The notes under the pieces were generated by a model, which saw only the letters and a list, made by a program, of their open reading frames with translations, had not been told where the DNA came from and did not search any database. Shown here piece after piece: positions 3,383 through 57,955 of a stretch of DNA of 64,000 nucleotides. The position numbers and the translations under genes were made by a program. Numbering within the stretch: position 1 is the first letter of the stretch; each line of letters opens with the position of its first letter. Where the stretch lies: the NCBI RefSeq assembly GCF_021295095.1, contig NZ_JAJLQX010000001.1, forward strand, positions 1-64,000. The letters run 5' to 3'. Origin of the DNA: Phocaeicola oris. Lineage in GTDB: Bacteria; Bacteroidota; Bacteroidia; Bacteroidales; Bacteroidaceae.

Positions 3383-3492
3383 AAAAGTCATCCGCATGAA
3401 CTGATCAACTCATCCGCATGAACTGATCAACTCGTCCGCATGAATCGATCAACTCATCCGCATGAACTGATCAACTCATCCGCGTCACTTTT
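3383..3492. repeat. 22-bp phased dyad array A (5 units)
   Basis: Cores of the form TCATCCGCATGA begin at 3388, 3410, 3432, 3454 and 3476, exactly 22 bp apart. The 10-bp linkers contain TGATCA. The array is bounded by AAAAGTCAT on the left and GTCACTTTT on the right. It lies between the ends of the convergent transposase and Crp-family genes. Period 22 is not a multiple of three, so it is not coding. Same family as the arrays near 12.5, 27.6, 43.6, 51.9 and 57.9 kb. Confidence 0.9.
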
Positions 3493-3584
3493 CAGAAACT
3501 TCTGATGAATTCGATAACTCGTACATATCGTTTTCTTTGAAGATAGGTGCCATATTCCCATTCGATGACTGTGGCCGTAGCGTT

Positions 3585-4250
3585 TTACTTTAATTTATCG
3601 GAGTTGAGTATGGTGATTTCGCGACCTTCAACGCGAATAGCTCCCGACTCTTCAAATTCAGAGAGGCAACGGAGCAGAGAGAATTTCTGAATGCCGAACA
3701 TATCGGCTATTTCCTGCCGCGACTTATCGATTCTTATCGTACGACTCCCCTGATGCTGAGCTGCCGAAATAAGGAAATAAGCCACCTTTTCGCGTACGGA
3801 GAAAAGCGATAACATCCGCATTTTCCGAGTAAGAAACACATTGATAATAGACAATTGCCGGATAAAGTTCATCCGTATACGTTCGTTTTCGTCCATAAGC
3901 TTTTTCAGTTCAGATGGTGCCATGCGGAGTAAACGGGTAGGGCGGGAGGTTTCCACATTTACCGGCATGGCATTGTCTTTTGCGAAGATAAAAGCCGGAG
4001 CAATAAGCGTACCCTCTTGCAATCGGTCTATTTGCACCTGCTTTCCCGACAGTCCTTCCATACGGGCTATCATCTCACCATCTATAATGATGTCCGCGTA
4101 CTTGCAGGGGTTACCGGCCAGCGTATAAATCTCTTTAGCGGGAATCTCCACTATACGATAAAATATTTTCAGCAATACATCTTCTATTTCCTTTGGCTCG
4201 AATCCGGAGAACAAGGGGCAAGTCGACAAAACGGTCAGCGTATCTATCAT
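3585..4250 (-). CDS. Crp/Fnr-family transcription regulator
   Basis: Encodes 221 residues. Residues 15-115 form a cyclic-nucleotide-binding-like beta-barrel and residues 150-215 a winged helix-turn-helix (RQEIADMFGIQKFSLLRCLSE). The cysteines are C11, C48 and C189, with no FNR-type iron-sulphur cluster at the N-terminus, so a small molecule or haem is a likelier effector. It follows the DUF438/hemerythrin gene by 75 bp but has its own promoter overlapped by an inverted repeat, which suggests autoregulation. Regulators of this type often control nitrosative or anaerobic genes; that role here is inference. Confidence 0.92.
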   Translation of the reverse strand: MIDTLTVLSTCPLFSGFEPKEIEDVLLKIFYRIVEIPAKEIYTLAGNPCKYADIIIDGEMIARMEGLSGKQVQIDRLQEGTLIAPAFIFAKDNAMPVNVETSRPTRLLRMAPSELKKLMDENERIRMNFIRQLSIINVFLTRKMRMLSLFSVREKVAYFLISAAQHQGSRTIRIDKSRQEIADMFGIQKFSLLRCLSEFEESGAIRVEGREITILNSDKLK

Positions 4251-4266
4251 TTTTTCCTTTATATCG

Positions 4267-4297
4267 CAAAAGTACCAAGAATTTCTGATCCTTCCAA
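4267..4297 (-). promoter_or_regulatory. Promoter of the Crp/Fnr regulator
   Basis: On the minus strand TTGG (4297-4294) is followed after 19 bp by TACTTTTG (4274-4267), a full match to the -7 consensus. It is 17 bp upstream of the ATG at 4250. Confidence 0.65.
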
Positions 4298-4309
4298 TTC
4301 GACTTGGAA
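4292..4309. promoter_or_regulatory. Inverted repeat, likely Crp-family operator
   Basis: TTCCAA (4292-4297) and TTGGAA (4304-4309) form a perfect dyad with a 6-bp gap, the same geometry as CRP sites. It covers the -33 box of the regulator's own promoter, a classic position for autorepression. No U-run follows on either strand, so it is less likely to be a terminator. Confidence 0.5.
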
Positions 4310-4325
4310 AAATTCCGGAGTTTCG

Positions 4326-5768
4326 TTATTTGTTTTTATTGGTAGAATGCATAAAGTGCTCTTTTGCAAATTCCATATCTTGAACAAATTCGGCTGTACC
4401 CACATAATGTCCTTCCTTATCTCGAACAGCAGTATAGGTAACCAACATGGTTCGTCCGTTTTTCTCCATCCATATAGGAACTTGATTGCGTTTGCCCTCC
4501 CGAAATTCTTTGATGATGGTACGTACCATAGGTTCTATCTTTGGCGGGTGACAAGTGAATACTTCGCGGTCGACAGCCATAGCCGGGCGTTTGAACACTT
4601 TCGGTCCCTCATTAAAGTAACGGTTGATGTTTCCATCGTCCACGAAACTGATTTCTAATGGGATGGTATTCAGCAAAGCAGTGAGTTGTTCCACTGTGAG
4701 ATGTCCACCGGGCATCACCACTTCTCCTTGATGATCGGGCAGAACAATCTGTCTTTTTTCTGCCTGCTCCCACATAACACTTTCTACGCCAAGGCAGGGA
4801 GCATAATCTTTCGCGTCACGGTAAATTTGTTCCCACTCCTCATCGGTAAAGTTAGCCGCGCAGATTGGAAAGAGTATATTATCCTCTTTATATATCATTT
4901 CGTTTGACCGTTGTAAGACTGCTCTTACCCTTTCTTTCCATTCATCGTTTTGTTCTGTGCTTTTCAGTAAGGACGCGAATTCGTCCCTGATTTCATCATC
5001 TACGGTCCACATTACCTCCGATGGTCCGGTAATGCCGTATTTCACTTTCAAATGCGGATAAAGCAAATCCCCTTTCTTGGCATAATGAATGGCTACCTGT
5101 CGGATACGTTTCAGCGTATCGGTAGGGTCTTCCTGTCGTCCCAATTGTTTGCGTGCCTTTTCGATGAGTTTCTTCAACGCCTTGTTTTCGCGTGTGAACG
5201 TTTGTAGCGGATGCCCTTCTATAGCTATAAGAGAGGTACATTTCCCTGTATTGGTGTTAGCCATAGCGATGGTTTTCTCCTGTTCCCGCTTAATTGAAGC
5301 CTCCACTTCTTTTTCAGCATGGAGTATTTTCTCTTCCATTGTAGCGCCATGAAAGAGAGCGGAATGGACATCACAGAGTCTTTGTACATTTTTCAGCGGT
5401 TCGCCTTCAGCCATCAATTCCTGTTCGGCACGCATAATTTCGGCGGCTTCCACGTTTTTAAAGTTGTCTACAAAATCGGCACGTACGCTCTCCAGATCCT
5501 CTCCCTGACTAAGTCGATGGAGGTAGCTTTTCAGCAGTGCTATCCGGTCGAGTTCAAATCCGTTAGAGATAAGTGTATCTGTAATCAGATCCATACTGAT
5601 ACCTTTCATTTTAGCACCCTTAGGTATAGTCATCAGTTTGCCTACCGACTCTCGTATAAACTTCTTGCGGATTTCAGTAAATCCAATTGATGATAGGATT
5701 TCTATCAATTCCGGATACTGTTTTGTCAGCTCATAGACAGAGCTGTTGAAATCAATTTTTTTTGCCAT
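4326..5768 (-). CDS. DUF1858/DUF438/hemerythrin/PAS sensor protein
   Basis: Encodes 480 residues from ATG 5768; a TTG seven codons earlier falls inside the -7 box and is not used. A DUF1858 domain (about 5-65) is followed by a DUF438 segment (about 85-150), a hemerythrin HHE helical domain (about 200-335, with histidines spaced for a di-iron site) and a PAS-like domain (about 360-470). Proteins of this make-up are thought to sense or handle oxygen or nitric oxide in anaerobes. It is cytosolic, with no signal peptide. The Crp/Fnr gene lies directly downstream, a plausible sensor-regulator pair. Confidence 0.88.
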   Translation of the reverse strand: MAKKIDFNSSVYELTKQYPELIEILSSIGFTEIRKKFIRESVGKLMTIPKGAKMKGISMDLITDTLISNGFELDRIALLKSYLHRLSQGEDLESVRADFVDNFKNVEAAEIMRAEQELMAEGEPLKNVQRLCDVHSALFHGATMEEKILHAEKEVEASIKREQEKTIAMANTNTGKCTSLIAIEGHPLQTFTRENKALKKLIEKARKQLGRQEDPTDTLKRIRQVAIHYAKKGDLLYPHLKVKYGITGPSEVMWTVDDEIRDEFASLLKSTEQNDEWKERVRAVLQRSNEMIYKEDNILFPICAANFTDEEWEQIYRDAKDYAPCLGVESVMWEQAEKRQIVLPDHQGEVVMPGGHLTVEQLTALLNTIPLEISFVDDGNINRYFNEGPKVFKRPAMAVDREVFTCHPPKIEPMVRTIIKEFREGKRNQVPIWMEKNGRTMLVTYTAVRDKEGHYVGTAEFVQDMEFAKEHFMHSTNKNK

Positions 5769-5786
5769 AATATTATTTGTTTTGTG

Positions 5787-5794
5787 CAAAGATA
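5787..5794 (-). promoter_or_regulatory. -7 box of the DUF438 gene
   Basis: TATCTTTG on the minus strand matches TAnnTTTG, 18 bp before the ATG at 5768. The -33 region is weak. A dyad TTAAT-AATC-ATTAA at 5840-5853 lies about 45 bp upstream and could be an activator site. Confidence 0.5.
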
Positions 5795-6003
5795 AGAGGG
5801 TGGAAATCTTTTTTCGGTAACAATTGTGTCGGTCATGAGTTAATAATCATTAAAGCAGATAGTCAGATTGTCTCGTTCTCATCATTTTTTTTATCAGGAT
5901 ATAGGATGATTTCTGTTAAGATTGGATTGGGATTTAAAATATATTATTTACCTTTACCACCTCATCGAAAGACATACCAAGAATTGAAAAACATATCAAA
6001 AAG

Positions 6004-8607
6004 ATGAAAGCAAACATTTTAAAGAGTATTGCAATTGTAGCGCTTGTTGCATTTGTTCCTCTGACAGGATGCGAAAAGCAAGGCAATGTAGTGAAAGACT
6101 ACGCAGGCATGCGAACCAGTGCGCTGGATAATTCCGCATGGGATCAATCCATTTGGATTTCAGCAGTTAATGCCTCGGTTGTAACCGATACCATTAAAGG
6201 CAACGTTTGTCGTGCTGCCGATGGGGCAAGTTTTTTTGCTTCAACTATTAAGAACGAGAAGAAAGTCACTTCGGTAAAGTGGATGACTGCCGGACTCGGT
6301 GTGTATGAGTTGTATATCAATGGTAAAGAAGTAGGTAACGAGTTTCTGAAACCGGGATTCACACATTATGCTAAGACGAAACGTTCGTTTACTTACGATG
6401 TTACGGATGCCATTGATAATAAGGCAGACAATGAGAACTTGTTTGCTGTTCAGGTCACTCCGGGATGGTGGGCCGATAAGATTGTTACTCCGGGCGACCA
6501 TGTGGGAATGATTGGAAAGAAATGTGCTTTCCGTGGTGTATTGGAATATACCTTTGCCGATGGCAGTAAAAAACTCTATGGCACGAATGTAGAAGATTGG
6601 AAAGCCGGAATAGCCGGTCCTGTTCTACATGCGGCTATCTTTGACGGTGAGGTTTACGACGCTCGTATCAAGCCGGGGTATGAAACTCCGGAGAAGTTAA
6701 GTAAACCTGAGCAGAATAATGAGTTCAATGGTGAGATTCTTCCTTCGGACGGAGCGGAGATTTATCTGCGTCAGGATTTAGCCCTTGCTCCGGTTAAAGC
6801 TTATGTATGGAAGGACGTAGAGGGCGTAACGGATGATGCTTTTGGTAAGGTCGTTATTTCTAAAGAATTTACTCATGGAGAAGAAATAGTTGTTAAACAG
6901 GGCGAGACACTTGTCGTTGATTTTGGTCAGAATGCAGCTGCCGTACCTTCATTTGAATTCAACGCTAAAGAAGGAACTGTCCTTACTTGTCTTCCGGCAG
7001 AATTGCTGAACGATGGTAATGGAGCCAAGAGTCGTGGCATGGATGGTCCGGAGGGAAGTTGTCACCGTACCAACCTGAGAACTCCCGATCAAGGGATGCA
7101 GCTGATATATACATTTGGTAATAATGAAGGATTTGTTTCATTCTACCCGCGTTGTACCTTCTTCGGATATCGTTTCGTATCCGTAACAGCTACCGATGAA
7201 GTTCGTATTAAATCCATTCAATCAGTTCCGGTGACTTCTATTGCCAAGGATTTGGAAATAGGTACGATAACTACCGGTAATGATTTGATCAATCAACTTA
7301 TTTCGAATACGATATGGGGTGAGCGTTCTAACTATCTGTCAGTTACTACCGACTGCCCTCAGCGTAACGAGCGTTTGGGCTGGACAGCCGATACTCAGGT
7401 ATTTACCGAAACAGGTACATTCTTTGCCAATACCGATAAGTTCTTCCATAAATGGATGCGTGACATGCGTGACTCTCAGAGTGAGAAGGGCGGATTTCCG
7501 GGTGTTGCTCCTACTGCTCAATATGGTGGCGATATGATGCGTGTCGGTTGGGCTGACGCAGGGATAATTGTTCCTTGGACTGTCTGGAAGCAGTTTGGTG
7601 ATAATCAGATTGTTGACGAGAACTGGGAAGCAATGAATAAGTATATGACATACGTCAATGATACGAAATATGATCATAAAGCACACATTGAAGAGAACGG
7701 TAATTATCAATGGGCTGACTGGTTGAGCTATGAGCCTCTGGAGAGCTGTGGCGGCTTGGCATTCGAGGTTGATAAATCGGGCAAGCGTGGTCCTAAGGCT
7801 GACGCTGTGGATTACTGGAACTATCTGAGTGCTTCTTATTGGGCTATCGATGCCGGAATGATGCGCGATATGGCAACAGCTACCGGTCGTGACGCAGCTG
7901 TTTATCAGAAGATGGAGGATGACGCGAAAGCGTATTTGAAAGCTACTTTCTTAAATGAAAATGGAGAATTTAAGGTTCCGATTTTGAATACTATGCAGAC
8001 TCCTGCTTTGTTCGCTTTGAAAAATAATCTGGTTGAAGGTCAGGCTAAAGAGAATATGATTGCCCATTTGCGTGATAACTTTAAAGAACATGGCAATTGT
8101 CTTCAAACAGGTTTCTTGGGAACATCTATTCTGATGCAGACATTGACGGATAATGGTATGGCCGACATATCTTATGAGTTGCTTTTCCAGCGCAAGAATC
8201 CAAGCTGGTTATATTCTGTTGATAACGGCGCTACTACTATCTGGGAGCGTTGGAACAGTTACATGATTGATAAAGGCATGGGACCATCGGGTATGAACAG
8301 TTTCAATCACTATGCATACGGTTGTGTATGTCAGTGGATTTGGGAGACTGCTGCCGGTATTGCTGCCGACCCTGCCGTTCCCGGATTTAAGCATATTATT
8401 ATGCGTCCTGTTCCGGACAAACGTTTAGGTTATATAAAGGCTGAATATAATTCTGCTGCCGGTCTGATTAAGAGTGAGTGGAAGTATGATGGTGATAAGT
8501 GGACTTGGAGTTTTACTGTCCCTGAAGGTGCCACTGCGTCAGTTACGCTTCCGGGTGAGACAGAAGTTAAAGAATATAAGAGTGGATCTTATACAGTAGA
8601 GAAATAA
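6004..8607 (+). CDS. GH78 alpha-L-rhamnosidase lipoprotein
   Basis: Encodes 867 residues. A lipoprotein signal peptide with lipobox LTGC (Cys23) places it at the cell envelope. Beta-sandwich domains (about 40-400) precede the catalytic (alpha/alpha)6 barrel (about 410-770), where TTDCPQRNERLGWTAD carries the conserved acidic residues of the family; the usual GD at its end is AD here. A C-terminal beta domain ends the protein. It should release rhamnose from plant or bacterial glycans. It stands alone, with no SusC/D neighbour, and is followed by a strong terminator. Confidence 0.92.
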   Translation: MKANILKSIAIVALVAFVPLTGCEKQGNVVKDYAGMRTSALDNSAWDQSIWISAVNASVVTDTIKGNVCRAADGASFFASTIKNEKKVTSVKWMTAGLGVYELYINGKEVGNEFLKPGFTHYAKTKRSFTYDVTDAIDNKADNENLFAVQVTPGWWADKIVTPGDHVGMIGKKCAFRGVLEYTFADGSKKLYGTNVEDWKAGIAGPVLHAAIFDGEVYDARIKPGYETPEKLSKPEQNNEFNGEILPSDGAEIYLRQDLALAPVKAYVWKDVEGVTDDAFGKVVISKEFTHGEEIVVKQGETLVVDFGQNAAAVPSFEFNAKEGTVLTCLPAELLNDGNGAKSRGMDGPEGSCHRTNLRTPDQGMQLIYTFGNNEGFVSFYPRCTFFGYRFVSVTATDEVRIKSIQSVPVTSIAKDLEIGTITTGNDLINQLISNTIWGERSNYLSVTTDCPQRNERLGWTADTQVFTETGTFFANTDKFFHKWMRDMRDSQSEKGGFPGVAPTAQYGGDMMRVGWADAGIIVPWTVWKQFGDNQIVDENWEAMNKYMTYVNDTKYDHKAHIEENGNYQWADWLSYEPLESCGGLAFEVDKSGKRGPKADAVDYWNYLSASYWAIDAGMMRDMATATGRDAAVYQKMEDDAKAYLKATFLNENGEFKVPILNTMQTPALFALKNNLVEGQAKENMIAHLRDNFKEHGNCLQTGFLGTSILMQTLTDNGMADISYELLFQRKNPSWLYSVDNGATTIWERWNSYMIDKGMGPSGMNSFNHYAYGCVCQWIWETAAGIAADPAVPGFKHIIMRPVPDKRLGYIKAEYNSAAGLIKSEWKYDGDKWTWSFTVPEGATASVTLPGETEVKEYKSGSYTVEK

Positions 8608-8626
8608 GTGACGGATTGATATAAAT

Positions 8627-8672: not shown

Positions 8673-8698
8673 ATATTATGATTTCTAACTTGTATTGT

Positions 8699-9160: not shown

Positions 9161-9182
9161 GATTTTATAATGATATGGTTTG

Positions 9183-12480: not shown

Positions 12481-12565
12481 AGTGATGCGGATGAGTTGCT
12501 TGGTTCATGCGGATGAGTTTGTCGGTTCATGCGTATGAGTTGATCGATTCATCCGTATCACTTTT
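12481..12565. repeat. 22-bp phased dyad array B (4 units)
   Basis: Cores begin (AT of ATnCG) at 12485, 12507, 12529 and 12551, exactly 22 bp apart. The array starts AGTGATGCGG and ends CGTATCACTTTT, which are near-complements of each other. It lies in a divergent intergenic region, far from both gene starts. Confidence 0.9.
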
Positions 12566-13090: not shown

Positions 13091-13091
13091 T

Positions 13092-27452: not shown

Positions 27453-27506
27453 GAAATGGGGATATGAAGCGATGGAACACGTCATCCGATACGTATGAAT
27501 GATGGA

Positions 27507-27634
27507 AGTGATACGGATGAGTTTCCGTATTCATCAGAAGAATTTGTGCGCTTATACGTATGAGTCATGGAACTCATCCGTATGAGTTGGGTGATTCATC
27601 CGCATAAGTTTCGGAACTCATGCGCATCACTTTC
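27507..27634. repeat. 22-bp phased dyad array C (6 units)
   Basis: Cores fall at 27511, 27533, 27554, 27576, 27598 and 27620, a 22-bp phase with one 1-bp slip; the second unit is degenerate. It starts AGTGATACGG and ends GCATCACTTT. It lies between two plus-strand genes. Confidence 0.85.
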
Positions 27635-27670
27635 CAATAGGTTGCTGATGGTAAATTTAATGAACACGTA

Positions 27671-27694
27671 GGTTCCATAGGTTCCACAGGTTCC
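27671..27694. repeat. Three GGTTCC repeats at 9-bp period, left copy
   Basis: GGTTCC at 27671, 27680 and 27689 with CAT/ACA linkers. An inverted counterpart follows the gene at 28272-28295, so the two arrays form a perfect flanking inverted repeat in which every unit matches. Confidence 0.85.
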
Positions 27695-27697
27695 GCT

Positions 27698-28270
27698 ATG
27701 CTGTTTTCGGAACCTGAAAAGAATGAAAATTTTTCAGAAAACATTGAGTCACAGGATGATATTATCGAGCACACCATTAGTGCCCTACCCTGCCTGCCCC
27801 GTTGTGTTTATACCCATCTTAATCAAATTTTGCTTACAATAACGAACATGGCGAACATATACTACGGACTGATAATGATGCGCCTCTGCACCATCCTCAC
27901 GGCCATGCGTAAGTGGGAAGCTAAAATGACGTTCACCGATGTTTATTGCGACGATGCCGATTTTAAAACGGCACGGGGCATAGTGCCGAACTGCATAAAG
28001 CACAGCTTGGCGCTGTTCACCATGCTGCCCGGCGGCATCAAGGTAACGCAGCCGGCAAAAAGCAACGAGGAAGTATTCTACATCCTCTTGGCTATGCCGG
28101 AAGAATTTACGTGGAGTGAATTTTGGGCTGCCCTGAAAGAAGCTCAGTTCTCAAAAAATATATGTAACAAAACATTGAAAAAGTTTGTCAAAAAAGGGTT
28201 TATTGTAAAAAAAGAAGGCAAGTATATAAAGAACAAAAAAGCCCTGAAGAAGGTTTCCAAAAGGGCATAG
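27698..28270 (+). CDS. DUF3987-like C-terminal fragment protein
   Basis: Encodes 190 residues. The middle (LTAMRKWEAKMTFTDVYCDD and DFKTARGIVPN, then HSLALFTML) resembles the C-terminal helical part of DUF3987 proteins, which normally have a much longer N-terminal helicase/primase-like part that is missing here. The C-terminus is a lysine-rich winged-helix-like region (CNKTLKKFVKKGFIVKKEGKY). It is boxed tightly by inverted 9-bp arrays: 4 bp before the ATG and 1 bp after the stop. Possibly a gene relic kept inside a repeat-bounded unit. Confidence 0.55.
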   Translation: MLFSEPEKNENFSENIESQDDIIEHTISALPCLPRCVYTHLNQILLTITNMANIYYGLIMMRLCTILTAMRKWEAKMTFTDVYCDDADFKTARGIVPNCIKHSLALFTMLPGGIKVTQPAKSNEEVFYILLAMPEEFTWSEFWAALKEAQFSKNICNKTLKKFVKKGFIVKKEGKYIKNKKALKKVSKRA

Positions 28271-28271
28271 T

Positions 28272-28295
28272 GGAACCTGTGGAACCTGTGGAACC
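28272..28295. repeat. Three GGAACC repeats at 9-bp period, right copy
   Basis: GGAACC at 28272, 28281 and 28290 with TGT linkers, the reverse complement of the left array at 27671-27694. Read in frame it would encode repeated Val-Glu-Pro followed by lysines. Confidence 0.85.
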
Positions 28296-28329
28296 TAAAA
28301 AAAAATAAAACGCTGTTTTAATCTATCCT

Positions 28330-43515: not shown

Positions 43516-43650
43516 TAAAGTGATCAGTACGATATCCGAAACTGATCCGCATGAGTTGTTCGGTTCATGCGTATCAGTTGTCCAACTCATGCGCATCATT
43601 TGCTAAACTCATCCGCATGAGTTGCTCGGTTCATGCGTATCAACTCGGAT
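43516..43650. repeat. 22-bp phased dyad array D (6 units)
   Basis: Cores at 43523, 43545, 43567, 43589, 43611 and 43633, exact 22-bp steps. Left edge AAAGTGATCA; the right edge lacks the usual ATCACTTT. It lies 65 bp upstream of the uvrA -33 box. Confidence 0.88.
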
Positions 43651-48662: not shown

Positions 48663-50180
48663 ATGTTTGAAGGACAACCAAAAGGCCTTTTTGCGTTAGC
48701 ATTGGCCAACACGGGTGAGCGTTTCGGCTATTATACCATGATTGCTGTTTTCGCCCTATTTTTAAGAGCCAACTTTGGCTTATCTGCCGGTACAGCCGGT
48801 TTAATTTACAGTATTTTCTTGGCAATGGTCTATCTGGCTCCGCTGTTTGGCGGTATGCTGGCAGATAAGTATGGCTATGGAAAGATGGTTACTATTGGAA
48901 TCATTGTAATGTTCTTTGGTTATCTGTTTCTATCTGTTCCTTTAGGTGGAAATACCATTGCATTGGCCTGTATGCTTGCAGCTTTGTTGCTTATCAGTAT
49001 GGGTACAGGACTTTTTAAGGGCAATCTGCAGGTTATGGTAGGAAATCTTTATGATGACCCTCTTTATAAGGATAAGCGCGATTCCGGTTTCTCTATATTC
49101 TATATGGCCATCAATATTGGCGCGCTGTTTGCTCCGACAGCGGCTGTTGAGATTAAAGAATGGGCTGAGACAAGTCTGGGCTTTTCTTCTAACGATGCCT
49201 ATCATTTCTCTTTTGCCGTGGCCTGTCTTTCATTAGTGTTGTCTATTCTTATATATTATGCATTCCGTTATACTTTCCGTAGTGCCGAAGCAAGTGTTCA
49301 GTCATCTGCCGCTGCTGCTAAACATGAGGAAGAACTATCTCCGGCCGACACAAAGGCTCGTATCGTGGCACTCTGTCTGGTATTTGCAGTTGTTATTTTC
49401 TTTTGGATGTCTTTTCATCAGAATGGTCTGACATTGACTTACTTTGCTAACGAATTTACTCAGAAGACTTCTACAGGTATTCAGAGTATGGCGTTCGATG
49501 TTATCAATCTTGTTATGATTATTCTTATTGTCTATGCGTCATTCTCACTGGTACAGAGCAAGACATCTAAGGGCAAAAGCATCTCTGTGGTGGTTATCAT
49601 GGCCGCGTTAGCCGTATTGTATTATAAATATCAGCGAATTAGCGGATCTGTCGATGTCAGCGCGCCCATCTTCCAGCAATTCAATCCGTTCTATGTTGTT
49701 GCTTTGACACCGGTCAGCATGGCTATCTTCGGTTCACTTGCCAAGAAAGGAAAAGAACCTTCCGCACCACGAAAGATTGCTTATGGTATGCTCGTTGCAG
49801 CGGTAGCTTATTTGGTAATGATGGCCGCTTCTATGGGATTAAATACGCCTGACGCGCAGAAGGTGGCCGGTGATGGTGGAACTTTTGTTTCTGCCAACTG
49901 GTTGATAGGCACTTATCTTATTCTTACTTTCGGTGAATTGTTACTGAGTCCGATGGGTATCTCTTTTGTTTCTAAAGTGGCTCCTCCTAAGTATAAAGGT
50001 TTGATGATGGGTGGTTGGTTTGTTGCTACAGCAGCCGGAAACATGCTTGTCAGTGTAGGCGGATTCCTTTGGGGCGGACTTCCATTATGGGTAGTATGGC
50101 TCGTATTCATTATTGTTTGTACGCTCTCTGCTGCTTTCATGTTCGCTATGATGAAGCGATTAGAGAAAGTCGCGAAATAA
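48663..50180 (+). CDS. POT-family peptide transporter, copy 1
   Basis: Encodes 505 residues with about 14 membrane helices. NTGERFGYYTM (about 17-27) is the family's ExxERFxYY motif with Asn at the first Glu position; GGMLADKYGYGK and GIQSMAFDVINL follow, with SPMGISFVSKVAPPKYKG in helix 10. Proton-coupled import of di/tripeptides. Tandem twin of the next gene at 50302. Confidence 0.93.
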   Translation: MFEGQPKGLFALALANTGERFGYYTMIAVFALFLRANFGLSAGTAGLIYSIFLAMVYLAPLFGGMLADKYGYGKMVTIGIIVMFFGYLFLSVPLGGNTIALACMLAALLLISMGTGLFKGNLQVMVGNLYDDPLYKDKRDSGFSIFYMAINIGALFAPTAAVEIKEWAETSLGFSSNDAYHFSFAVACLSLVLSILIYYAFRYTFRSAEASVQSSAAAAKHEEELSPADTKARIVALCLVFAVVIFFWMSFHQNGLTLTYFANEFTQKTSTGIQSMAFDVINLVMIILIVYASFSLVQSKTSKGKSISVVVIMAALAVLYYKYQRISGSVDVSAPIFQQFNPFYVVALTPVSMAIFGSLAKKGKEPSAPRKIAYGMLVAAVAYLVMMAASMGLNTPDAQKVAGDGGTFVSANWLIGTYLILTFGELLLSPMGISFVSKVAPPKYKGLMMGGWFVATAAGNMLVSVGGFLWGGLPLWVVWLVFIIVCTLSAAFMFAMMKRLEKVAK

Positions 50181-50209
50181 TCTCTTTTTATAGTGTTTAT
50201 TAGTGTGAA

Positions 50210-50244
50210 ATAGCCCTCCTTTATAATACAAAAAGGGGGGCTAT
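50210..50244 (+). terminator. Stem-loop between twin transporters
   Basis: ATAGCCCTCC (50210-50219) pairs with GGGGGGCTAT (50235-50244) with one mismatch. No U-run, so probably a weak terminator or a processing hairpin. Confidence 0.55.
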
Positions 50245-50301
50245 GTGAATAATAAGATGCTTATTACATCATAAATTCTAAACATATTAATATTTAATAC
50301 T

Positions 50302-51819
50302 ATGTTTGAAGGACAACCTAAAGGTTTGTTTGCACTGGCTTTATCCAATACGGGTGAGCGGTTTGGGTACTATACCATGATAGCTGTCTTTGCCCTTTTT
50401 CTTAGAGCGAACTTCGGACTCTCTGCCGGAGCAGCCGGATTGATATACAGTCTGTTTTTGGCATTTGTTTATCTTTCGCCTATTGTGGGAGGTATTTTAG
50501 CCGACAAGTATGGCTATGGAAAGATGGTTACTTTAGGAATTGTCGTTATGTTATTCGGCTATCTGCTTCTTTCTATTCCGTTGGGTGGAAACACCTTTGC
50601 CCTGATTTTTATGCTGGCAGCATTGCTGCTTATCGGCGTAGGAACGGGACTCTATAAGGGGAATGTGCAGGTTATGGCGGGTAATCTGTACGATGATCTT
50701 AAGCTCGCCGGCAAGCGTGATGCCGGATTCTCCGTTTTTTATATGGCTGTGAACATTGGCGCGCTGTTTGCTCCTACGGCGGCAGTACGCATTAAGGAAT
50801 GGGCAGAGAACAGTCTTGGCTTCTCTTCTAACGATGCTTATCACTTCGCTTTTGCGGTAGCTTGCCTTTCTATGGTAGTTTCCATCATTATTTATTATAC
50901 ATTCCGCTATACTTTCAGGCATGTTGAGGGCAGTGTACAGTCATCGGCCGAGACTGCAAGCCACACAGCCGAGTTGTCATTAAAGGAGACAAAGTCGCGT
51001 ATCTTTGCGCTTTGTTTTGTGTTCGCTGTTGTTATCTTTTTCTGGATGTCGTATAATCAAAACGGTCTTACGCTGACTTATTTTGCCGACGAATTCACCC
51101 AAAAGACTTCTTACGGCTTACAGAGCATGTGGTTTGATGTGGTAAATTTAGTCATGATTATTTTCATCGTATACGCTACGTTCAGTTTATTTCAAAGCAA
51201 GACAAAGCGTGCCCGTTATATCGCGTCGGATGTCATTATTTTTGCCATGGCTGTACTTATTTATAAGTATACACAGGCGAATCAAGTCATAGATATCAGC
51301 GCGCCTATTTTTCAGCAATTCGGAGCTTTCTTTGTGGTAGCGCTCACACCGGTCAGTTTGGCTATATTTGGAGCGTTGGCAAAGAAGGATAAAGAACCTT
51401 CCGCGCCTCGAAAGATTGCTTATGGAATGCTTGTTGCTTCCTTGGCATACGTCGTAATGCTCATTGCGTCTTTCGGGCTGAATACTCCCGATCAACAAAA
51501 ATTAGCAGGAGATGATGGTACTTTCGTATCGGCCAACTGGTTAATAGTAAACTACCTCATCATCACTTTTGCCGAACTGTTGTTGAGTCCGATGGGCATT
51601 TCTTTTGTATCAAAAGTATCGCCTCCGAAGTATAAAGGCTTGATGATGGGAGGTTGGTTCGTTTCCACCGCGCTTGGAAATATCTTAGTCAGCGTAGGCG
51701 GATTCCTTTGGGGCAGTTATCCGTTGTGGTTCGTATGGATGGTATTTATTGTATTTTGCGTTATCTCCGCTCTCTTTATGTTCGCCATGATGAAACGCTT
51801 GGAGAAAGTGGCTGAGTAA
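50302..51819 (+). CDS. POT-family peptide transporter, copy 2
   Basis: Encodes 505 residues, the same length as copy 1 and aligned without visible gaps. It shares NTGERFGYYTM, GGILADKYGYGK and the C-terminal FAMMKRLEKVA. Differences are mostly conservative and concentrated in the middle loop (about 210-235) and helix 9. A tandem duplication that has diverged, maybe with different peptide preference. Array E follows 40 bp after its stop. Confidence 0.93.
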   Translation: MFEGQPKGLFALALSNTGERFGYYTMIAVFALFLRANFGLSAGAAGLIYSLFLAFVYLSPIVGGILADKYGYGKMVTLGIVVMLFGYLLLSIPLGGNTFALIFMLAALLLIGVGTGLYKGNVQVMAGNLYDDLKLAGKRDAGFSVFYMAVNIGALFAPTAAVRIKEWAENSLGFSSNDAYHFAFAVACLSMVVSIIIYYTFRYTFRHVEGSVQSSAETASHTAELSLKETKSRIFALCFVFAVVIFFWMSYNQNGLTLTYFADEFTQKTSYGLQSMWFDVVNLVMIIFIVYATFSLFQSKTKRARYIASDVIIFAMAVLIYKYTQANQVIDISAPIFQQFGAFFVVALTPVSLAIFGALAKKDKEPSAPRKIAYGMLVASLAYVVMLIASFGLNTPDQQKLAGDDGTFVSANWLIVNYLIITFAELLLSPMGISFVSKVSPPKYKGLMMGGWFVSTALGNILVSVGGFLWGSYPLWFVWMVFIVFCVISALFMFAMMKRLEKVAE

Positions 51820-51858
51820 ATGCTTATCGTTATGAAAAGTCATACCAATGAGAGTGCC

Positions 51859-52008
51859 AAGTGATGCTGATGAGTTGTTCGGTTCATGCGTATGAGTTGT
51901 TCGGTTCATGCGTATGAGTTGTTCGGTTCATGCGTATGAGTTGTTCGGTTCATGCGTATGAGTTTATCCGTTCATGCGTATCAGTTTATCTGTTCATACG
52001 TATCAGTA
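51859..52008. repeat. 22-bp phased dyad array E (7 units)
   Basis: After a first divergent unit near 51863, cores begin (TTCAT) at 51883, 51905, 51927, 51949, 51971 and 51993, exactly 22 bp apart. The middle four are identical over the whole unit, linker GTTGTTCGGT included. The left edge is AAGTGATGC. Tandem gene setting (POT copy 2 to HD gene). The uniform units suggest recent expansion. Confidence 0.93.
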
Positions 52009-52093
52009 TTGGCGTGTTACTTTTGTCTTTATTTTATTAGCAGAGATAATGATTTTAATTATCTTTGTATGCTTTAACAAAACAATAACAGAG

Positions 52094-52726
52094 ATGAAAA
52101 TTGATATAGAAGCGAATAAAAAAGAATTCATTACTCTGCTTAAATCGACGGAGCGGGAAGGGGTGGATTACGTGATAGAAGACTTGGAGAAGAACGGGTT
52201 CTTCACCGCTCCTGCGTCGGCAGGGCATCATCTGAATGTAGAAGGTGGATTGCTGGTTCACTCGCTGAATACGTGTAAGGCCGCGCTTATGCTATATGAG
52301 AACATGCAGAAGCTGGAGCCCACGCTGGCAGGTGAAGTGAAAAGAGAAAGCGTTATTCTGGCAAGCCTGTTGCACGATGTATGTAAAGAAGATGTGTATA
52401 TCCGTTCTACCAAGAGGCGTAAGAATGTGCTGGGCGAGTGGGAAGATTATGAAGGCTATAGGGTATCGTATAAGAACTTTCCGATGGGGCATGGAGAAAA
52501 GTCGGTTGTTCTGTTGCTATACAGTGGTTTGGAACTGAACGATGACGAAATGTTGGCTATTCGTTGGCATATGGGAGCATTCGGACTGAATCTGAACAGT
52601 GTAGAGGATATGAAAAACTATGATGCTGCCAAGACACGTTATCCATTGGTATCTATCGTTCAATGTGGTGATAATCTGGCAGCGAGCATCATGGAACGGA
52701 ACGCGGGGGATATAGACAATTTATAA
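52094..52726 (+). CDS. HD-domain hydrolase-like protein
   Basis: Encodes 210 residues from ATG 52094, 27 bp after a -7 box TATCTTTG (52060-52067); frames opening earlier run through array E. The HD motif is present: HLNVEGGLLVHSLNT (about 46) and ASLLHDVCKED (about 90), then GHGEKSVVLL and IRWHMGAFG. Phosphohydrolase of unknown substrate, perhaps a nucleotide. The YgbA gene starts 2 bp downstream. Confidence 0.88.
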   Translation: MKIDIEANKKEFITLLKSTEREGVDYVIEDLEKNGFFTAPASAGHHLNVEGGLLVHSLNTCKAALMLYENMQKLEPTLAGEVKRESVILASLLHDVCKEDVYIRSTKRRKNVLGEWEDYEGYRVSYKNFPMGHGEKSVVLLLYSGLELNDDEMLAIRWHMGAFGLNLNSVEDMKNYDAAKTRYPLVSIVQCGDNLAASIMERNAGDIDNL

Positions 52727-52728
52727 GA

Positions 52729-53025
52729 ATGTCAGGCAGAATAGAAAGAGAAAAGACTACTGTTCGTGAAATGATAGCGTTGTACTCCAAGCATAAGCTG
52801 AAACAGTCGGAAATATCGGAGGAATACAAACAGTTGACCGATTATGCCTGCAATCGTTTAGATCACTGTACGTTCGGAGAGAAGAAGACATCGTGTAAGA
52901 ACTGCCCGATACATTGTTATGCGCCAAAGCAAAGAGAGCAAATCAGGGAAGTGATGCGGTGGGTAGGACCGAGGATGTTTTTCTATAATCCGATATACGC
53001 CATAAAGCATCTTTTCGAGAAATAA
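52729..53025 (+). CDS. ygbA: YgbA, nitrous-oxide-stimulated promoter family protein
   Basis: Encodes 98 residues. Conserved ACNRLDHCTFGEKKTSCKNC (about 44-63) and PIHCYAPKQRE give four cysteines that could bind metal. The YgbA_NO family is induced by nitric oxide in enterobacteria; its biochemical role is unclear. Translationally close to the HD gene (2 bp). Confidence 0.92.
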   Translation: MSGRIEREKTTVREMIALYSKHKLKQSEISEEYKQLTDYACNRLDHCTFGEKKTSCKNCPIHCYAPKQREQIREVMRWVGPRMFFYNPIYAIKHLFEK

Positions 53026-53053
53026 ATATTTCATGTCATAAATCAAAACAAAA

Positions 53054-54352
53054 ATGGTATTACAAAAATTGTTTGGGTATGATCCCAAAAGCATGAAGGT
53101 GAGGACCGAGCTTATAGCAGGAGCCACAACTTTCCTCACCATGAGTTATATTTTAGCCGTAAATCCGGCCATTCTGAGTACTACAGGAATGGATAAGGCG
53201 GCATTGTTCACCAGTACGGCTATCGCTTCGGCTATAGCAACCATTCTGTTGGCAGTGATGGCCAAATTGCCGTTCGCTCAGGCCCCGAGTATGGGATTGA
53301 ATGCGTTTTTTGCCTTCACTCTTTGTCAGGCGATGGGATTCACTTGGCAACAATCGTTGGCCGCATTGCTCATTGAAGGAATTATATTTATCCTTATCAC
53401 GTTTTTAAATGTACGTGAATTGATATTGAACAGTATTCCTGTTAATCTGCGGTATGCTATCTCGGCGGGCATCGGAATGTTCATTGCTTTCATCGGTTTG
53501 AAGAATGCCGGTATTATAGTGGCTAATCCTGATACCTTTGTCGGATTAGGAAAGTTCACTCCGACAGCCATTTTGGGTATAATTGCCATACTGTTAAGCG
53601 GTATACTCATGGCTCGCAAGGTAAAAGGAGCGTTGTTTTATGGTATTATCATGGCTACTATCATAGGTATTCCAATGGGAGTGACTCAAATTCCGGAAGG
53701 TTGGTTGCCGGTATCTGCTCCACAATCGGTAGCCCCCATCTTCTGTAAGTTCGATTTCACGAACTTTTTCAATTTCAAGATGTTCATTGTCATCTTTTCA
53801 TTGCTGATAGTTAATATTTTTGATACCGTAGGAACATTGGTTGGTCTGGCCGAGAAGACAGGTATTGTAGAGGAAGACGGAACGATTCCACATGTAAAAG
53901 AAGCCATGATGAGCGATGCCATCGGTACTACTGCCGGAGCAATCCTTGGTTCATCGACTATTACTACTTATATAGAAAGCGCGTCGGGTATTGCCGAAGG
54001 CGGACGAAGCGGCTTGACATCCTTTGCAGTTGGTATTTTCTTTTTGTTATCATTGTTCCTTTCGCCGTTGTTCCTGCTTATTCCGGGTGCCGCGACCAGT
54101 GGAGCGTTGGTATTGGTTGGTGTACTGATGATTGATTCCGTGAAACGGATAGATTTAACCAACATATCCGAAGCGTTCCCGGCTTTCATTACCATGATTA
54201 CAATGGTGCTTTGTTACAGCATTGCCGATGGTATTTGCCTGGGAATCCTCAGTTATGTTATTATGAAACTTTGCATCGGTGAATATAAGAAAGTAAATCC
54301 TACCTTAGCAATACTTAGTGTTCTGTTTATTCTAAATTTTATCTTTGGATAA
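53054..54352 (+). CDS. NCS2-family nucleobase permease (AzgA-like)
   Basis: Encodes 432 residues with about 13 membrane helices. AGATTFLTMSYILAVNP (about 23-39), APSMGLNAFFAF, NIFDTVGTLVGL and SSTITTYIESASGIAEGGR are AzgA-branch signatures. Proton-coupled uptake of adenine, guanine or hypoxanthine. It ends one base before the convergent DUF5020 gene. Confidence 0.94.
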   Translation: MVLQKLFGYDPKSMKVRTELIAGATTFLTMSYILAVNPAILSTTGMDKAALFTSTAIASAIATILLAVMAKLPFAQAPSMGLNAFFAFTLCQAMGFTWQQSLAALLIEGIIFILITFLNVRELILNSIPVNLRYAISAGIGMFIAFIGLKNAGIIVANPDTFVGLGKFTPTAILGIIAILLSGILMARKVKGALFYGIIMATIIGIPMGVTQIPEGWLPVSAPQSVAPIFCKFDFTNFFNFKMFIVIFSLLIVNIFDTVGTLVGLAEKTGIVEEDGTIPHVKEAMMSDAIGTTAGAILGSSTITTYIESASGIAEGGRSGLTSFAVGIFFLLSLFLSPLFLLIPGAATSGALVLVGVLMIDSVKRIDLTNISEAFPAFITMITMVLCYSIADGICLGILSYVIMKLCIGEYKKVNPTLAILSVLFILNFIFG

Positions 54353-55093
54353 TCAGAAGGTCCATTTAATGGCAAGTGTCGGGATGGCATAGAACTTGTT
54401 GTTCTTGCTGTCCCGATTATATACAAAGTTGTTACTGATTTCTACCTCGGTACCGATACTCAGATTAAAATCCTCACATCCCTGAAGGGTGTTCATGTTA
54501 TACCAGAACTGCGGCTCAGAAAGCAGAATCCATTTTCCGTTTACATTTGGATCGTACCATAAATCACAGAATCCGGAAAAAGTACAAGCCTTATTAGCGA
54601 AGGTGATGCCCCAGACTTCAGTAAGTTGAAATCCGCTGAACGGACTGTTCCATGCATTTTGTCCCTTGAAATAATACTTATACATAGCTTGCAGAGAAAA
54701 TGTACGCGAGAAGTCGGCACTGTGCCAGTTCCATGCCGGACCAACTAATATGGCGTGTTGGAATCGGTTAGCGTAATTTCCTACTTGATTGCCCTGCATA
54801 CCTCCGTTATATTCCACATGAGCAGCCCACATTTTATTTTTCGAAACATTCAGTTCGCGTGCCACTTCCCAATAGGCACCGGCTATACCATCGTGATAAT
54901 AATCCAGATCGACAAAGAAGAATGTGCTTCCCCAGCGGTCGGGTTTGAACATCTCAATAGTAGTTGTAACACTCGGACGATTGCTTAATCCATCGAATAA
55001 GCTGTGTCCTAAATCATAATGGAACTGTAAGTTCTGCGCAGAGAGCATTCCGCAAAACAGAATAGCGACGAGAAGTGTTATATACCTCTTCAT
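54353..55093 (-). CDS. DUF5020 Tsx-like outer-membrane channel
   Basis: Encodes 246 residues. Signal peptide ends LSAQN (about 20); the rest is an aromatic-rich 12-stranded beta-barrel (WGSTFFFVDLDYY, FSLQAMYKYYFKG, GTEVEISNNFVYN, terminal AIKWTF). The fold resembles the nucleoside channel Tsx. Lying against a nucleobase permease, it may pass nucleosides or bases through the outer membrane (inference). A -7 box TACTTTTG is at 55130-55123. Confidence 0.82.
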   Translation of the reverse strand: MKRYITLLVAILFCGMLSAQNLQFHYDLGHSLFDGLSNRPSVTTTIEMFKPDRWGSTFFFVDLDYYHDGIAGAYWEVARELNVSKNKMWAAHVEYNGGMQGNQVGNYANRFQHAILVGPAWNWHSADFSRTFSLQAMYKYYFKGQNAWNSPFSGFQLTEVWGITFANKACTFSGFCDLWYDPNVNGKWILLSEPQFWYNMNTLQGCEDFNLSIGTEVEISNNFVYNRDSKNNKFYAIPTLAIKWTF

Positions 55094-55180
55094 GTATCAA
55101 ATAATTTATGTTAATATGGGCGCAAAAGTACAATTTTATATTTATCTGCCCAATAATTCTTCTTTAAATCTAACGGTTAT

Positions 55181-55840
55181 TTAATAACCTAAATTTTCTC
55201 CGACCAACAGAACGATGTGACGCTTGGCAGGATGTGACATTCGCATGATGGATATATAATTACAGATACTGTCGGGCGACTTGCAGTTATGACAGATTCC
55301 ATCAGTTTTACACGGAGTCTGATTATGGTCGAAACGAGCCATGTTAATTGGAGCGGCGGTCGATCGAGCGCGTTTAACAGCCGCGTCTATATCCTGACAT
55401 ACTTTGTTCATGCCTACGACGAGCAATACATGTTCAGGACCGAAAGTGATGGCAGCCACACGGTTACCGTTACTATCAATATTGACGATGATTCCGTCTT
55501 CGCTGATAGCGTTCACGCCGGCCAGATAGAAATCACATTCAAATGCTTTACGGTAAATTCGCGCTTTATCTTCTTGCGTAGTGACATCGTCACGGTCGAA
55601 TACCTGATAGTCTCCATTTTTCAGCGCCTCAGTCAGTCCCATATCACGGATACTCATGGAACCTCCCCATGAGATAGAACAACCCTTAGGAATGATTTTC
55701 AATGCTTTTCGGAGTGCTTCCTTAGCGGTAGGGCAGTAATAAGCATCGTAATGACGCATGTTCAGGTTTTTTATGAGCTTCTGAGCAAGTAAATCATTAC
55801 GTAATTCTCTTGGTGATTTCTTTTCATCCAACATAGTCAT
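55181..55840 (-). CDS. LUD-domain lactate-utilisation protein
   Basis: Encodes 219 residues of the LutC/YkgG (LUD) family: GCSISWGGSMSIRDMG (about 53-68), YLAGVNAISEDGIIVNIDSNGNRVA, HVLLVVGMNK and a C-terminal cysteine group (CKTDGICHNCKSPDSIC). Stand-alone LUD proteins are linked to lactate or fumarate/anaerobic metabolism. Third gene of a small operon with DUF4250. Confidence 0.9.
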   Translation of the reverse strand: MTMLDEKKSPRELRNDLLAQKLIKNLNMRHYDAYYCPTAKEALRKALKIIPKGCSISWGGSMSIRDMGLTEALKNGDYQVFDRDDVTTQEDKARIYRKAFECDFYLAGVNAISEDGIIVNIDSNGNRVAAITFGPEHVLLVVGMNKVCQDIDAAVKRARSTAAPINMARFDHNQTPCKTDGICHNCKSPDSICNYISIMRMSHPAKRHIVLLVGENLGY

Positions 55841-55850
55841 ATATAGTTAT

Positions 55851-56105
55851 TTACGATAATGATAATAATCTTTCCAATCGGTCGACCGATGAAGAAAGGT
55901 CGTGCGCGAAAGTGGTATGATCGAGCAAGTAGCTATCGTTTCCTTCCGCAATCTTTGCATACAAATCTTTATTCATTTGTATTATATACGAGTTAATGGC
56001 TATTTCTATCTCATCTTTCTGTGTGCTGCTGTTAGATTTCTCGTATACTTTCCATTTCTGATGAAAGAAACAATACGCAGCTTCTATGCTGTCTTTGGTT
56101 ATCAT
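55851..56105 (-). CDS. Small helical hypothetical protein
   Basis: Encodes 84 residues, mostly helical and soluble, ending SVDRLERLLSLS. No family recognised. It lies 7 bp after the DUF4250 gene and 10 bp before the LUD gene, so it is probably expressed with them. Confidence 0.6.
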   Translation of the reverse strand: MITKDSIEAAYCFFHQKWKVYEKSNSSTQKDEIEIAINSYIIQMNKDLYAKIAEGNDSYLLDHTTFAHDLSSSVDRLERLLSLS

Positions 56106-56112
56106 AATTTAT

Positions 56113-56298
56113 TTACCAAATTCTATTTTGTTTTCCATCATAGCGGTAACCGTTGTCAGCTAATTTCTTTTCAAGTTCTTTACGGTCGACATTATAATGA
56201 TAGCAAATCTCATCTAAATTGTTGAACATTTCGTCTCTCAATAGGAAATTGATGGCAGAGACAAGCATAGGTATGTCGTTTTCAGGTAAATGATCCAT
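56113..56298 (-). CDS. DUF4250 protein
   Basis: Encodes 61 residues. MLVSAINFLLRDEMFNNLDE, then YNVDRKELEKKLADNGY, fits the DUF4250 family of gut anaerobes. Function unknown. First gene of the three-gene minus-strand unit. Confidence 0.85.
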   Translation of the reverse strand: MDHLPENDIPMLVSAINFLLRDEMFNNLDEICYHYNVDRKELEKKLADNGYRYDGKQNRIW

Positions 56299-56438
56299 AT
56301 TTCATATTCGTTTATAATGCGACAAATTTAATAAAAAATCAGTTTACTTTACGATTTACAATGTGAAATATGATTTAGAGAAGTGTATAACCTTTTTGCG
56401 TCTTTCGTAAATTTTATATTAAATTATTCGTATGAATA

Positions 56439-56469
56439 TTTCTTATATTGTTTTTTAATTTTAAATTTG
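56439..56469 (+). promoter_or_regulatory. Promoter of the iron alcohol dehydrogenase
   Basis: TTTC (56439-56442), 19-bp spacer, TAAATTTG (56462-56469). It supports ATG 56496 as the start. Confidence 0.65.
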
Positions 56470-56495
56470 CATGTAGTAATACTAAACCATATATT

Positions 56496-57680
56496 ATGAT
56501 ACAAACAGGTTTAAGCTATAATTTTGGAGTTTCAACACAGGTATTGTTTGGTCCAGGGAAGTTGAACGAGTTGCATAACCAAGTTCTTCCGGGAAAGAAA
56601 GCGTTGTTGGTTATCTCGAATGGAAAGTCTACACGTGTGAACGGCTATCTTGACCGTACGGTAAAGGAACTGGAACAAGCCGGAGTTTCTTATGTCTTGT
56701 TTGATAAGGTACAGGCTAACCCGTTGAAGGCAACGGCTGAGGAAGGTGCCACTGTAGCTCGTGCGAACAATTGTGATTTTGTAGTAGCGCTTGGAGGAGG
56801 TTCGGTTATGGACTGCGCAAAGGCTATTGCGCTCAACGCGACTAATCCGGGCGATTTATGGGATTATGCTTTTGGTGGAACAGGAAAGCGCATCTTTGCC
56901 AAGAATGCTCCGTTGCCTATTATTGCTATTACTACTACAGCCGGAACAGGTTCGGAAGTTGATTGTGGTGGCGTTATCACCAATCCCGAAACCAACGAGA
57001 AGATAGGTATTGTCCATCCCGGTATTTTACCGCTTATAGCTATTGTTGATCCGGAACTCATGACCAGCGTTCCTCCTAAGTTCACTGCATACCAAGGTTT
57101 TGATGCCTTGTTCCATTCCACTGAAGGTTATATCTCTAAGCCGAGTAACCTGTTCAGCGACATGGTGGAAGAGACTGTAATTCGTATTATAGGAGAGTAT
57201 CTTCCTATTGCATATAAGGATGGGAAAAACATGGAAGCTCGTGCTCACATGGCATTTGCGAATACGCTATCGGGATATTCTATGATGACAGCATCGTGTA
57301 CAGCTGAACACAGCATTGAGCATGCGTTGAGTGCTTTTCATGGAGAACTTCCGCATGGAGCCGGCTTGATTATGATTTCAAAGGCATTTTATACTACTAT
57401 TATTAAGCAACATGTATGCGATGAGCGCTTTATCCGTATGGCAAAGATGTTAGGGAAAGCTGACGCAAAAGAACCGATGGATTTCATTACCGCTTTGACA
57501 GACATACAGAAAGCCTGTGAAGTAGATAATCTGAAAATGAGCGATTACGGTATTACTCGGGATGAGTTCAATAAGATGGCTGCCAATGCCCTTGAAGTAA
57601 TGGGAGGTTTGGTACAGATGGATCGTCAGCCACTCACGCACACTGATATAGTAAACATATTGCAAGATTCGTATAAGTAA
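56496..57680 (+). CDS. Iron-containing alcohol dehydrogenase
   Basis: Encodes 394 residues. NAD(P) loop ALGGGSVMDCAKAIAL (about 92-107), family motif ITTTAGTGSEVDCGGVI, and the metal site residues D and H in GFDALFHSTEGY, EHSIEHALSAF and HGAGLIM. Oxidises or reduces short-chain alcohols/aldehydes, butanol-dehydrogenase-like. Monocistronic with its own promoter and terminator. Confidence 0.94.
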   Translation: MIQTGLSYNFGVSTQVLFGPGKLNELHNQVLPGKKALLVISNGKSTRVNGYLDRTVKELEQAGVSYVLFDKVQANPLKATAEEGATVARANNCDFVVALGGGSVMDCAKAIALNATNPGDLWDYAFGGTGKRIFAKNAPLPIIAITTTAGTGSEVDCGGVITNPETNEKIGIVHPGILPLIAIVDPELMTSVPPKFTAYQGFDALFHSTEGYISKPSNLFSDMVEETVIRIIGEYLPIAYKDGKNMEARAHMAFANTLSGYSMMTASCTAEHSIEHALSAFHGELPHGAGLIMISKAFYTTIIKQHVCDERFIRMAKMLGKADAKEPMDFITALTDIQKACEVDNLKMSDYGITRDEFNKMAANALEVMGGLVQMDRQPLTHTDIVNILQDSYK

Positions 57681-57720
57681 ATCATTTGATTTACTCTTTT
57701 ATTCATAAATTATTGATTTG

Positions 57721-57755
57721 CGGGATAATGCTTAGCGTTATCCCGTTTCTTTTGA
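57721..57755 (+). terminator. Terminator after alcohol dehydrogenase
   Basis: CGGGATAATGC (57721-57731) pairs with GCGTTATCCCG (57735-57745; one G-U pair), loop TTA, then a T-rich stretch. Confidence 0.88.
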
Positions 57756-57784
57756 GTTAGAGATAATTAGAAAGTAATATGGTT

Positions 57785-57955
57785 ATATGCATCATCTTAG
57801 AATATGATGAGCATGACTTCTCAAGTTCATGCGTATAAAACAACAAAGTGATGCGTATGAGTTGGATGATTCATGCGTATGAGTTGATCAGTTCATGCGT
57901 ATCACTTTATCGCTTTATACGCATCACTTTATCGCTTTATACGCATCACTTTATT
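57785..57955. repeat. 22-bp phased dyad array F (about 7-8 units)
   Basis: Cores at 57807, 57829, 57851, 57873, 57895, 57917 and 57939, all at exact 22-bp steps, with a degenerate copy near 57785. The last three units end CATCACTTTAT or TATCACTTTAT. It lies between the convergent alcohol dehydrogenase and guaA genes, 60 bp beyond the dehydrogenase terminator. Confidence 0.9.

Follow-up and report, generated by a model that had tools for sequence, protein, structure and literature searches.

The window analyzed here, positions 1 to 64,000 of contig NZ_JAJLQX010000001.1 from the Phocaeicola oris assembly GCF_021295095.1 (forward strand), contains six short arrays of a repeated dyad that lie between genes (Table 1). 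The unit of these arrays, which we term family A, consists of the dyad TCATNCGNATGA, 12 bp in length, and a spacer of 10 bp. All six arrays exist where a preliminary description of this sequence had placed them, each having been read by eye and re-detected by script, and the 22-bp phase reported for them was recovered by Tandem Repeats Finder, which returns a period of 22 at six of six loci. The flanking genes, which throughout this work are script-called open reading frames (ORFs) with no annotated genes being used, are likewise arranged as had been described, namely convergent, divergent, tandem, divergent, tandem and convergent.

Table 1. Family-A arrays in the 64-kb window, with their orientation and gene context.
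Feature	Position	Strand	Context
Array of 5 units TCATNCGNATGA at 22 bp	3388..3487	-	between convergent genes: IS30-like transposase ORF / Crp-type regulator
Array of 4 units, ends AAAGTGAT...ATCACTTT	12483..12560	+	between divergent genes
Array of 7 units, the outermost weak, with a single 21-bp step	27487..27629	+	between tandem genes
Array of 6 units	43521..43642	+	between divergent genes
Array of 8 units	51840..52005	+	between tandem genes
Array of 8 units (first ones weak)	57783..57948	+	between convergent genes: Fe-ADH / GMP synthase

Across the 2.98-Mb genome the motif pair occurs 132 times on the forward and 140 times on the reverse strand, rising to 505 and 519 when up to 2 mismatches are allowed, with no match in this genome to a reversed-pattern control in either case. 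A first sample of 436 kb holds 27 arrays as opposed to none in one mononucleotide shuffle per contig; the phased core is thus in excess over shuffled DNA, and parity with such DNA, the outcome that the preliminary description had named as refuting it, is not what we observed. Contiguous sampling of 826 kb, window included, yielded 49 arrays, which extrapolates to approximately 175 per genome. The intergenic placement first noted in the window extends to all 49, none of which is contained in an ORF of at least 100 aa, with the coding fraction being 0.86-0.90 in the four first contigs; the array at 51840 overlaps the ORF at 51974-52726 by 32 bp when the latter is called from its first start codon. 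Steps between units were measured in 41 arrays, of which 27 come from contiguous stretches of this genome and 14 from stretches picked mostly for holding a motif match; 201 of the 207 steps are exactly 22 bp, with the remaining ones being 21 bp (3), 44 bp (2) and 43 bp (1). Phase and dyad are indeed kept while sequence varies, as had been claimed, with the qualification that the 10-bp spacer is itself partly conserved (GTTGNTCRRT), as is an inverted end pair, AAGTSAY...RTSACTT, both patterns of which are matched in 13 of 27 arrays. A CRISPR array is ruled out by the spacers, which measure only 10 bp and show conservation. Three contigs of this genome (G000), C1, C4 and C9, have ends within about 300 bp of family-A arrays, and the repeats or their neighbors probably break the assembly at these points.

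Those dispersed arrays that were classified by gene context (46) fall in 25 tandem, 13 convergent and 8 divergent intergenic regions, as compared to 103, 38 and 59 intergenic gaps of at least 150 bp, respectively; promoters are therefore not preferred by them. The earlier argument against a common role as promoters accordingly holds for the dispersed arrays, but it does not extend to arrays of the same build that we observed in promoters or leaders of numerous genes coding for HU-HIG proteins (PF18291), which are DNA binders with the HU fold. Such arrays accompany HU-HIG genes much more frequently than they do control sequences, and their motifs differ from gene to gene. The association is apparent at Flavobacteriia loci found by the motif alone: among the matches listed, four of five (L021, L028, L053 and L058, with L032 being the fifth) adjoin a HU-HIG gene at a distance of 85 to 635 bp on either side, in genomes with merely 2-9 PF18291 matches each. 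Furthermore, Tandem Repeats Finder run on HU-HIG loci shows that many of them have 3-4 copies of a 22-bp repeat nearby, usually upstream, with differing motifs.

We scored an upstream array as present when the best period within 250 bp upstream of a gene was 21-23 with at least 29 of 44 matches. A first set of 98 HU-HIG loci was reduced to 95 upon dropping two with short and one with masked upstream sequence, and 46 of these 95 Bacteroidota genes have an array, in contrast to 0/95 shuffles and 0/22 ordinary HU genes; upstream of other ORFs in the array-rich P. oris genome 11 of 362 were positive. Arrays were also found downstream of 17/96 HU-HIG genes. As many as 39 of the 46 positives reach at least 32/44, and only 2 of the 95 genes reach 32/44 at another best period. 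The unit consensuses of the 46 positives are dyadic on average, though often not singly, with a mean of 5.24 of 6 arm matches versus 4.41 after shuffling and 15 perfect cases, and in nine of the 46 a TAnnTTTG box stands just ahead of the array (2.9% in shuffled sequence). Because this set was partly biased by motif-found genomes and contained near-identical paralogs, the test was repeated under the same criterion within the genus of P. oris, where PF18291 matches occur in 61/61 genomes (1 to 18 each, ordinary HU counted in). Using the best HU-HIG locus per genome and the best-scoring 30 of the 61 genomes, 17/30 were positive, as opposed to 0/30 shuffles and 0/60 other segments of the same loci; L312 and L313 have the same array, and the best loci mostly code for long proteins. 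By eye, a recurrent frame in this second set is TCAC-N4-GTGA, which is close to TCAT-NCGN-ATGA.

The P. oris genome itself has eight PF18291 matches, five of which are full-length HU-HIG genes. In four of the five (L099, L100, L101 and L103) a TAnnTTTG box is followed by roughly four units of 22-23 bp and then the ATG, and the fifth (L102) has no array before its ATG. A motif-free scan for periods of 21-23, covering the first sample and 20 further stretches of this genome, recovered two dispersed families besides A, namely family B in seven places and family C in two. All seven dispersed family-B arrays best match the L103 promoter (33-38 of 44 nt, with other promoters reaching at most 32), and both family-C arrays best match the L101 promoter (35 and 38 of 44, with other promoters at most 31). 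Thus, the motif of a dispersed family stands before a HU-HIG gene of the same genome in the case of B and C, though not in that of family A. We also considered the idea that the dispersed arrays are remains of HU-HIG genes and rejected it, as a low-threshold six-frame profile search of the first sample and the 20 stretches returned only the known HU genes and one weak HU-like match beside one of them, with nothing convincing beside the arrays. The same search gave no support to a suggestion made from the letters, that a right flank repeated beside some arrays codes for a HU-HIG N-terminus, and a search of this genome with PF14848 for further HU types found no new gene.

Counting P. oris, three genomes have dispersed arrays that repeat the motif of one of their promoter arrays. 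In RGIG7311 (G208) a HU-HIG gene (L047/L114) is preceded by the motif of the window, as TCATGCGCATGA units, many dispersed copies of which are found in the same genome, and in G213 GCATCGCARCTGTCAT is common, by eye, to the promoter repeat of L133 and to the dispersed arrays. These two genomes hold 45/46 and 34/34 matches per strand in a search of 15 genomes, in which G211 has one control match per strand. P. oris is the only motif-rich genome among the 61 of its genus, eight others having at most 4 matches per strand and one genome having a control match. A motif-pair scan of genome contigs returned at least 46 stretches; among the matches listed, one belongs to Nocardia and one to Spirochaetia, and all others carry titles of Bacteroidota groups (Prevotellaceae, Bacteroidaceae, Tannerellaceae, Bacteroidales and Flavobacteriia). 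Between genomes the 22-bp phase is constant, while spacers and ends vary. A search of 397 Flavobacteriaceae genomes found matches in four, and four of the eight places among the matches listed adjoin a HU-HIG gene, in three of the four genomes. Only two IMG/VR stretches hold the motif pair, which led us to reject a mainly viral origin; one of them (L311, 3887-4440) has four 22-bp-phased family-A units about 35 bp before the ATG of a HU-HIG gene (PF18291, E 4.8e-11), indicating that array and gene can sit together on a virus-like contig. Similar dyads phased at 22/23 bp were seen at 4850-4998 of a Spirochaetia metagenome-assembled genome stretch (L060), near a RelE-type gene, and at 426-506 of a stretch from Nocardia ninae (L035); no HU-HIG gene was found in the stretch examined around either. 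Two HU-HIG genes of Flavobacterium paronense, L109 (1316-1430) and L118 (1946-2102), have upstream arrays of 10-bp period, AAAACATACC and TTTTTGCAGG, respectively; this period is one helical turn instead of two.

In light of these associations we propose, with a probability of roughly 0.63, that the arrays serve homodimeric HU-HIG-type proteins as phased DNA-binding platforms. The earlier suggestion of DNA binding over about two helical turns thus remains the best reading and acquires a candidate protein family, with binding as such being inferred. HU-family proteins are dimers with two-fold symmetry, which suits a 12-bp dyad, and each dyad (by eye, in the frame TCAY-N4-RTGA in much of the genus) would seat one HU-HIG dimer. 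As 22 bp corresponds to two turns, the phase would put neighboring dimers on one face of the DNA, where several could bind side by side. An array between the promoter and the ATG of a HU-HIG gene would hinder transcription and thereby set the level of the protein, probably amounting to autoregulation; a regulatory role for this subset of arrays is likely. The dispersed arrays of the window would be filled by a paralog specific for TCATNCGNATGA and would build local intergenic nucleoprotein patches rather than serve as promoters or terminators. The proteins beside the arrays have features compatible with this proposal. A model of the L047 protein (5-row alignment, pLDDT 75) shows the HU fold along with a C-terminal winged-helix-like part, and its best PDB match is 4fmr from Bacteroides vulgatus, followed by IHF and HU. 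A C-terminal winged helix is often present in HU-HIG proteins, and Pfam helix-turn-helix matches were obtained at the C-terminus of L099, L101 and L114, with none for L103.

Several observations weigh against this proposal. First, no array at the above threshold was detected for 49/95 and 13/30 of the HU-HIG genes in the two sets, and in the former 11 genomes had been reached through the motif and near-identical paralogs were included. Second, by the score used here single arrays are weakly dyadic, with 17-39 of 100 shuffles equaling the four promoter arrays of P. oris. Third, the family of the window is the one that lacks a partner at home: when three family-A arrays were compared with the four promoter arrays of their own genome, there was no match (at most 25/44), and a search among its eight PF18291 matches, five of them full-length, revealed no HU-HIG gene with an array of TCATNCGNATGA. 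The family-A protein would then be either missing from this assembly, which is 95% complete, or without an array of its own. Fourth, we abandoned the idea of a TCATNCGNATGA-specific HU-HIG clade, as proteins that adjoin TCATNCGNATGA-like arrays are spread over more than one clade in a quick tree. Fifth, the nearly identical close paralogs L232/L234 (G209) and L190-L194 (G627) have different upstream dyads, which implies either very fast joint change of specificity and array or a recognition looser than one motif per protein. Finally, divergent intergenic regions hold no excess of dispersed arrays, the other four of the eight Flavobacteriaceae places among the matches listed are not beside HU-HIG genes, and a HU-HIG gene occurs at only 5/63 motif loci searched, many others being either weak isolated matches or further copies of the repeat in genomes rich in arrays.

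An alternative is that the dispersed arrays constitute a non-autonomous mobile or mosaic repeat, comparable to miniature inverted-repeat transposable elements (MITEs) or bacterial interspersed mosaic elements (BIMEs), that spreads selfishly, with HU-HIG binding being a by-product or a part of mobility. This would account for the amplification in a single genome of the genus, for the placement of every sampled array in intergenic DNA, for the mixing of A and B units within some elements, and for a right flank of about 130 bp that 6/27 family-A arrays have in common and that is found next to family-B arrays as well. The inverted end pair points the same way, although the end patterns of the 13 arrays that match both are part of the array unit itself, and no target-site duplication was seen by eye beside these 13. 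Moreover, the shared flank is absent from most arrays, no transposase was linked to the ends, though no systematic search was made, and a plain MITE does not predict the same architecture before HU-HIG genes. We regard this explanation as unlikely. An empty site was looked for at one array, that at guaA, and none was found: the main match in other genomes of the genus, which are too distant, covers guaA only, with approximately 67-75% identity, so that the junction is not comparable.

The arrays could also space or organize the chromosome, for instance as nucleoid anchors, so that their position would be their function; this is compatible with HU-HIG proteins being the ligands, and we consider it quite unlikely. 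In its favor, the 49 sampled family-A arrays are nowhere closer to each other than 4.4 kb: the minimum gap of 4812 bp in the first sample was reached by none of 5000 random intergenic placements, and in an independent 389-kb sample a minimum gap of 4459 bp was obtained (P = 0.003). However, recombination that deletes DNA between close repeats would likewise clear near neighbors, and the minimum-gap result fits insertion immunity, recombination loss between neighbors and a spacing function alike. Even spacing, as measured by a low coefficient of variation, reached significance in the first sample only (P = 0.007), failed to replicate in the second (P = 0.48; joint 0.055) and was dropped; likewise, there is no clear link of orientation to GC skew, with +/- arrays numbering 19/11 at positive and 9/10 at negative skew. 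A function as transcription terminators, attenuators or RNA hairpins is highly improbable: the dyads in HU-HIG leader regions could fold in RNA and array direction equals gene direction in 17/25 tandem cases, but arrays are found in all gene orientations, an Rfam search of the window gave no match to a known RNA family, and the two N positions of the unit are Watson-Crick in just 9/96 units (G..T in 31, unable to pair in 56), which argues against hairpins and for a half-site TCATNC that is read twice.

Returning to the HU-HIG proposal, we tentatively envisage a more general picture, which we hold to be possible rather than probable, in which Bacteroidota have widespread sequence-specific HU-HIG proteins, many with a private, fast-changing, 22-bp-phased dyad array. 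One copy in the protein's own promoter would allow self-control, some species would have acquired tens to about 200 intergenic copies, and the resulting paralog-specific nucleoprotein patches would mark the chromosome in a second layer. In textbooks HU proteins bind DNA non-specifically, and HU-HIG proteins so reading their arrays would differ from the non-specific HU known so far. If they do read private phased dyads and regulate themselves, a large uncharacterized family of Bacteroidota DNA-binding proteins would gain a testable target, and scattered intergenic repeats would gain a reason to exist. The many paralogs, each with an array, would further offer a natural series for how a DNA-bending protein gains or changes specificity.

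What is new here is the link of phased dyad arrays to HU-HIG. The family is reportedly named in a 2017 Cell Cycle paper on HU clades, and its solved relative 4fmr (BVU_2165) has the same domain call and fold as the array-side proteins; a literature search turned up no report of phased operator arrays belonging to these proteins, and no description of such arrays beside HU-HIG genes was recognized in it, with the proviso that the paper naming the family may contain an earlier mention. Repetitive extragenic palindromic (REP) sequences and BIMEs are short palindromic repeats that number in the hundreds, lie between genes and form mosaic arrays. The arrays described here resemble them in being many, short, intergenic, palindromic and mosaic, but differ in their strict 22-bp phase and their link to an HU-type protein; no GTAG/CGTC tag was noticed, and no search for a REP transposase (RAYT) was made. 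Within Bacteroidota, BrickBuilt, a minisatellite MITE of Porphyromonas gingivalis, similarly forms intergenic arrays of a 23-nt unit at many loci (19), with a leader and tail of up to about 300 nt (PMC4596501). We rejected identity with it because its unit, AGAYCATARTATCCTCTCRTRTG, lacks the TCATNCGNATGA dyad by eye, and the parts of that account consulted describe no link to HU. PINSR, a 188-bp repeat of Prevotella intermedia with 177-184 intergenic copies, is lineage-specific, was judged non-coding and, in the portion of the source consulted, is said to be without terminal inverted repeats (PMC4755523). As described there, rather than by sequence comparison, it is like family A in the number of its copies and in lying between genes, and it may or may not be phased. 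PG0121 of P. gingivalis, an HU protein encoded beside a 77-bp inverted repeat (PMC3969353), offers another case of an HU-type gene next to an inverted-repeat element in Bacteroidota; in the sections seen, however, the protein is of the ordinary HU type and the repeat a single large one, with no phased array described.

Additional features of the window adjoin some of its arrays. A transposase-like ORF at 2226-3173 (HTH_38 + rve, which we read as of IS30 type) lies about 215 bp from the first array, and a tandem pair of POT/MFS transporter genes at 48663-51819, 72% identical at the nucleotide level, directly precedes the array at 51840. A 190-aa ORF at 27698-28270 with no Pfam match is flanked by inverted copies of a 47-bp GGTTCC-type repeat (27669-28297), and a sequence related to the latter segment (75% nucleotide identity over 378 columns) was found at C11:116027-116689, beside the array at C11:115860. 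The ORF and its repeat have the look of another small mobile unit, the second one to adjoin arrays.

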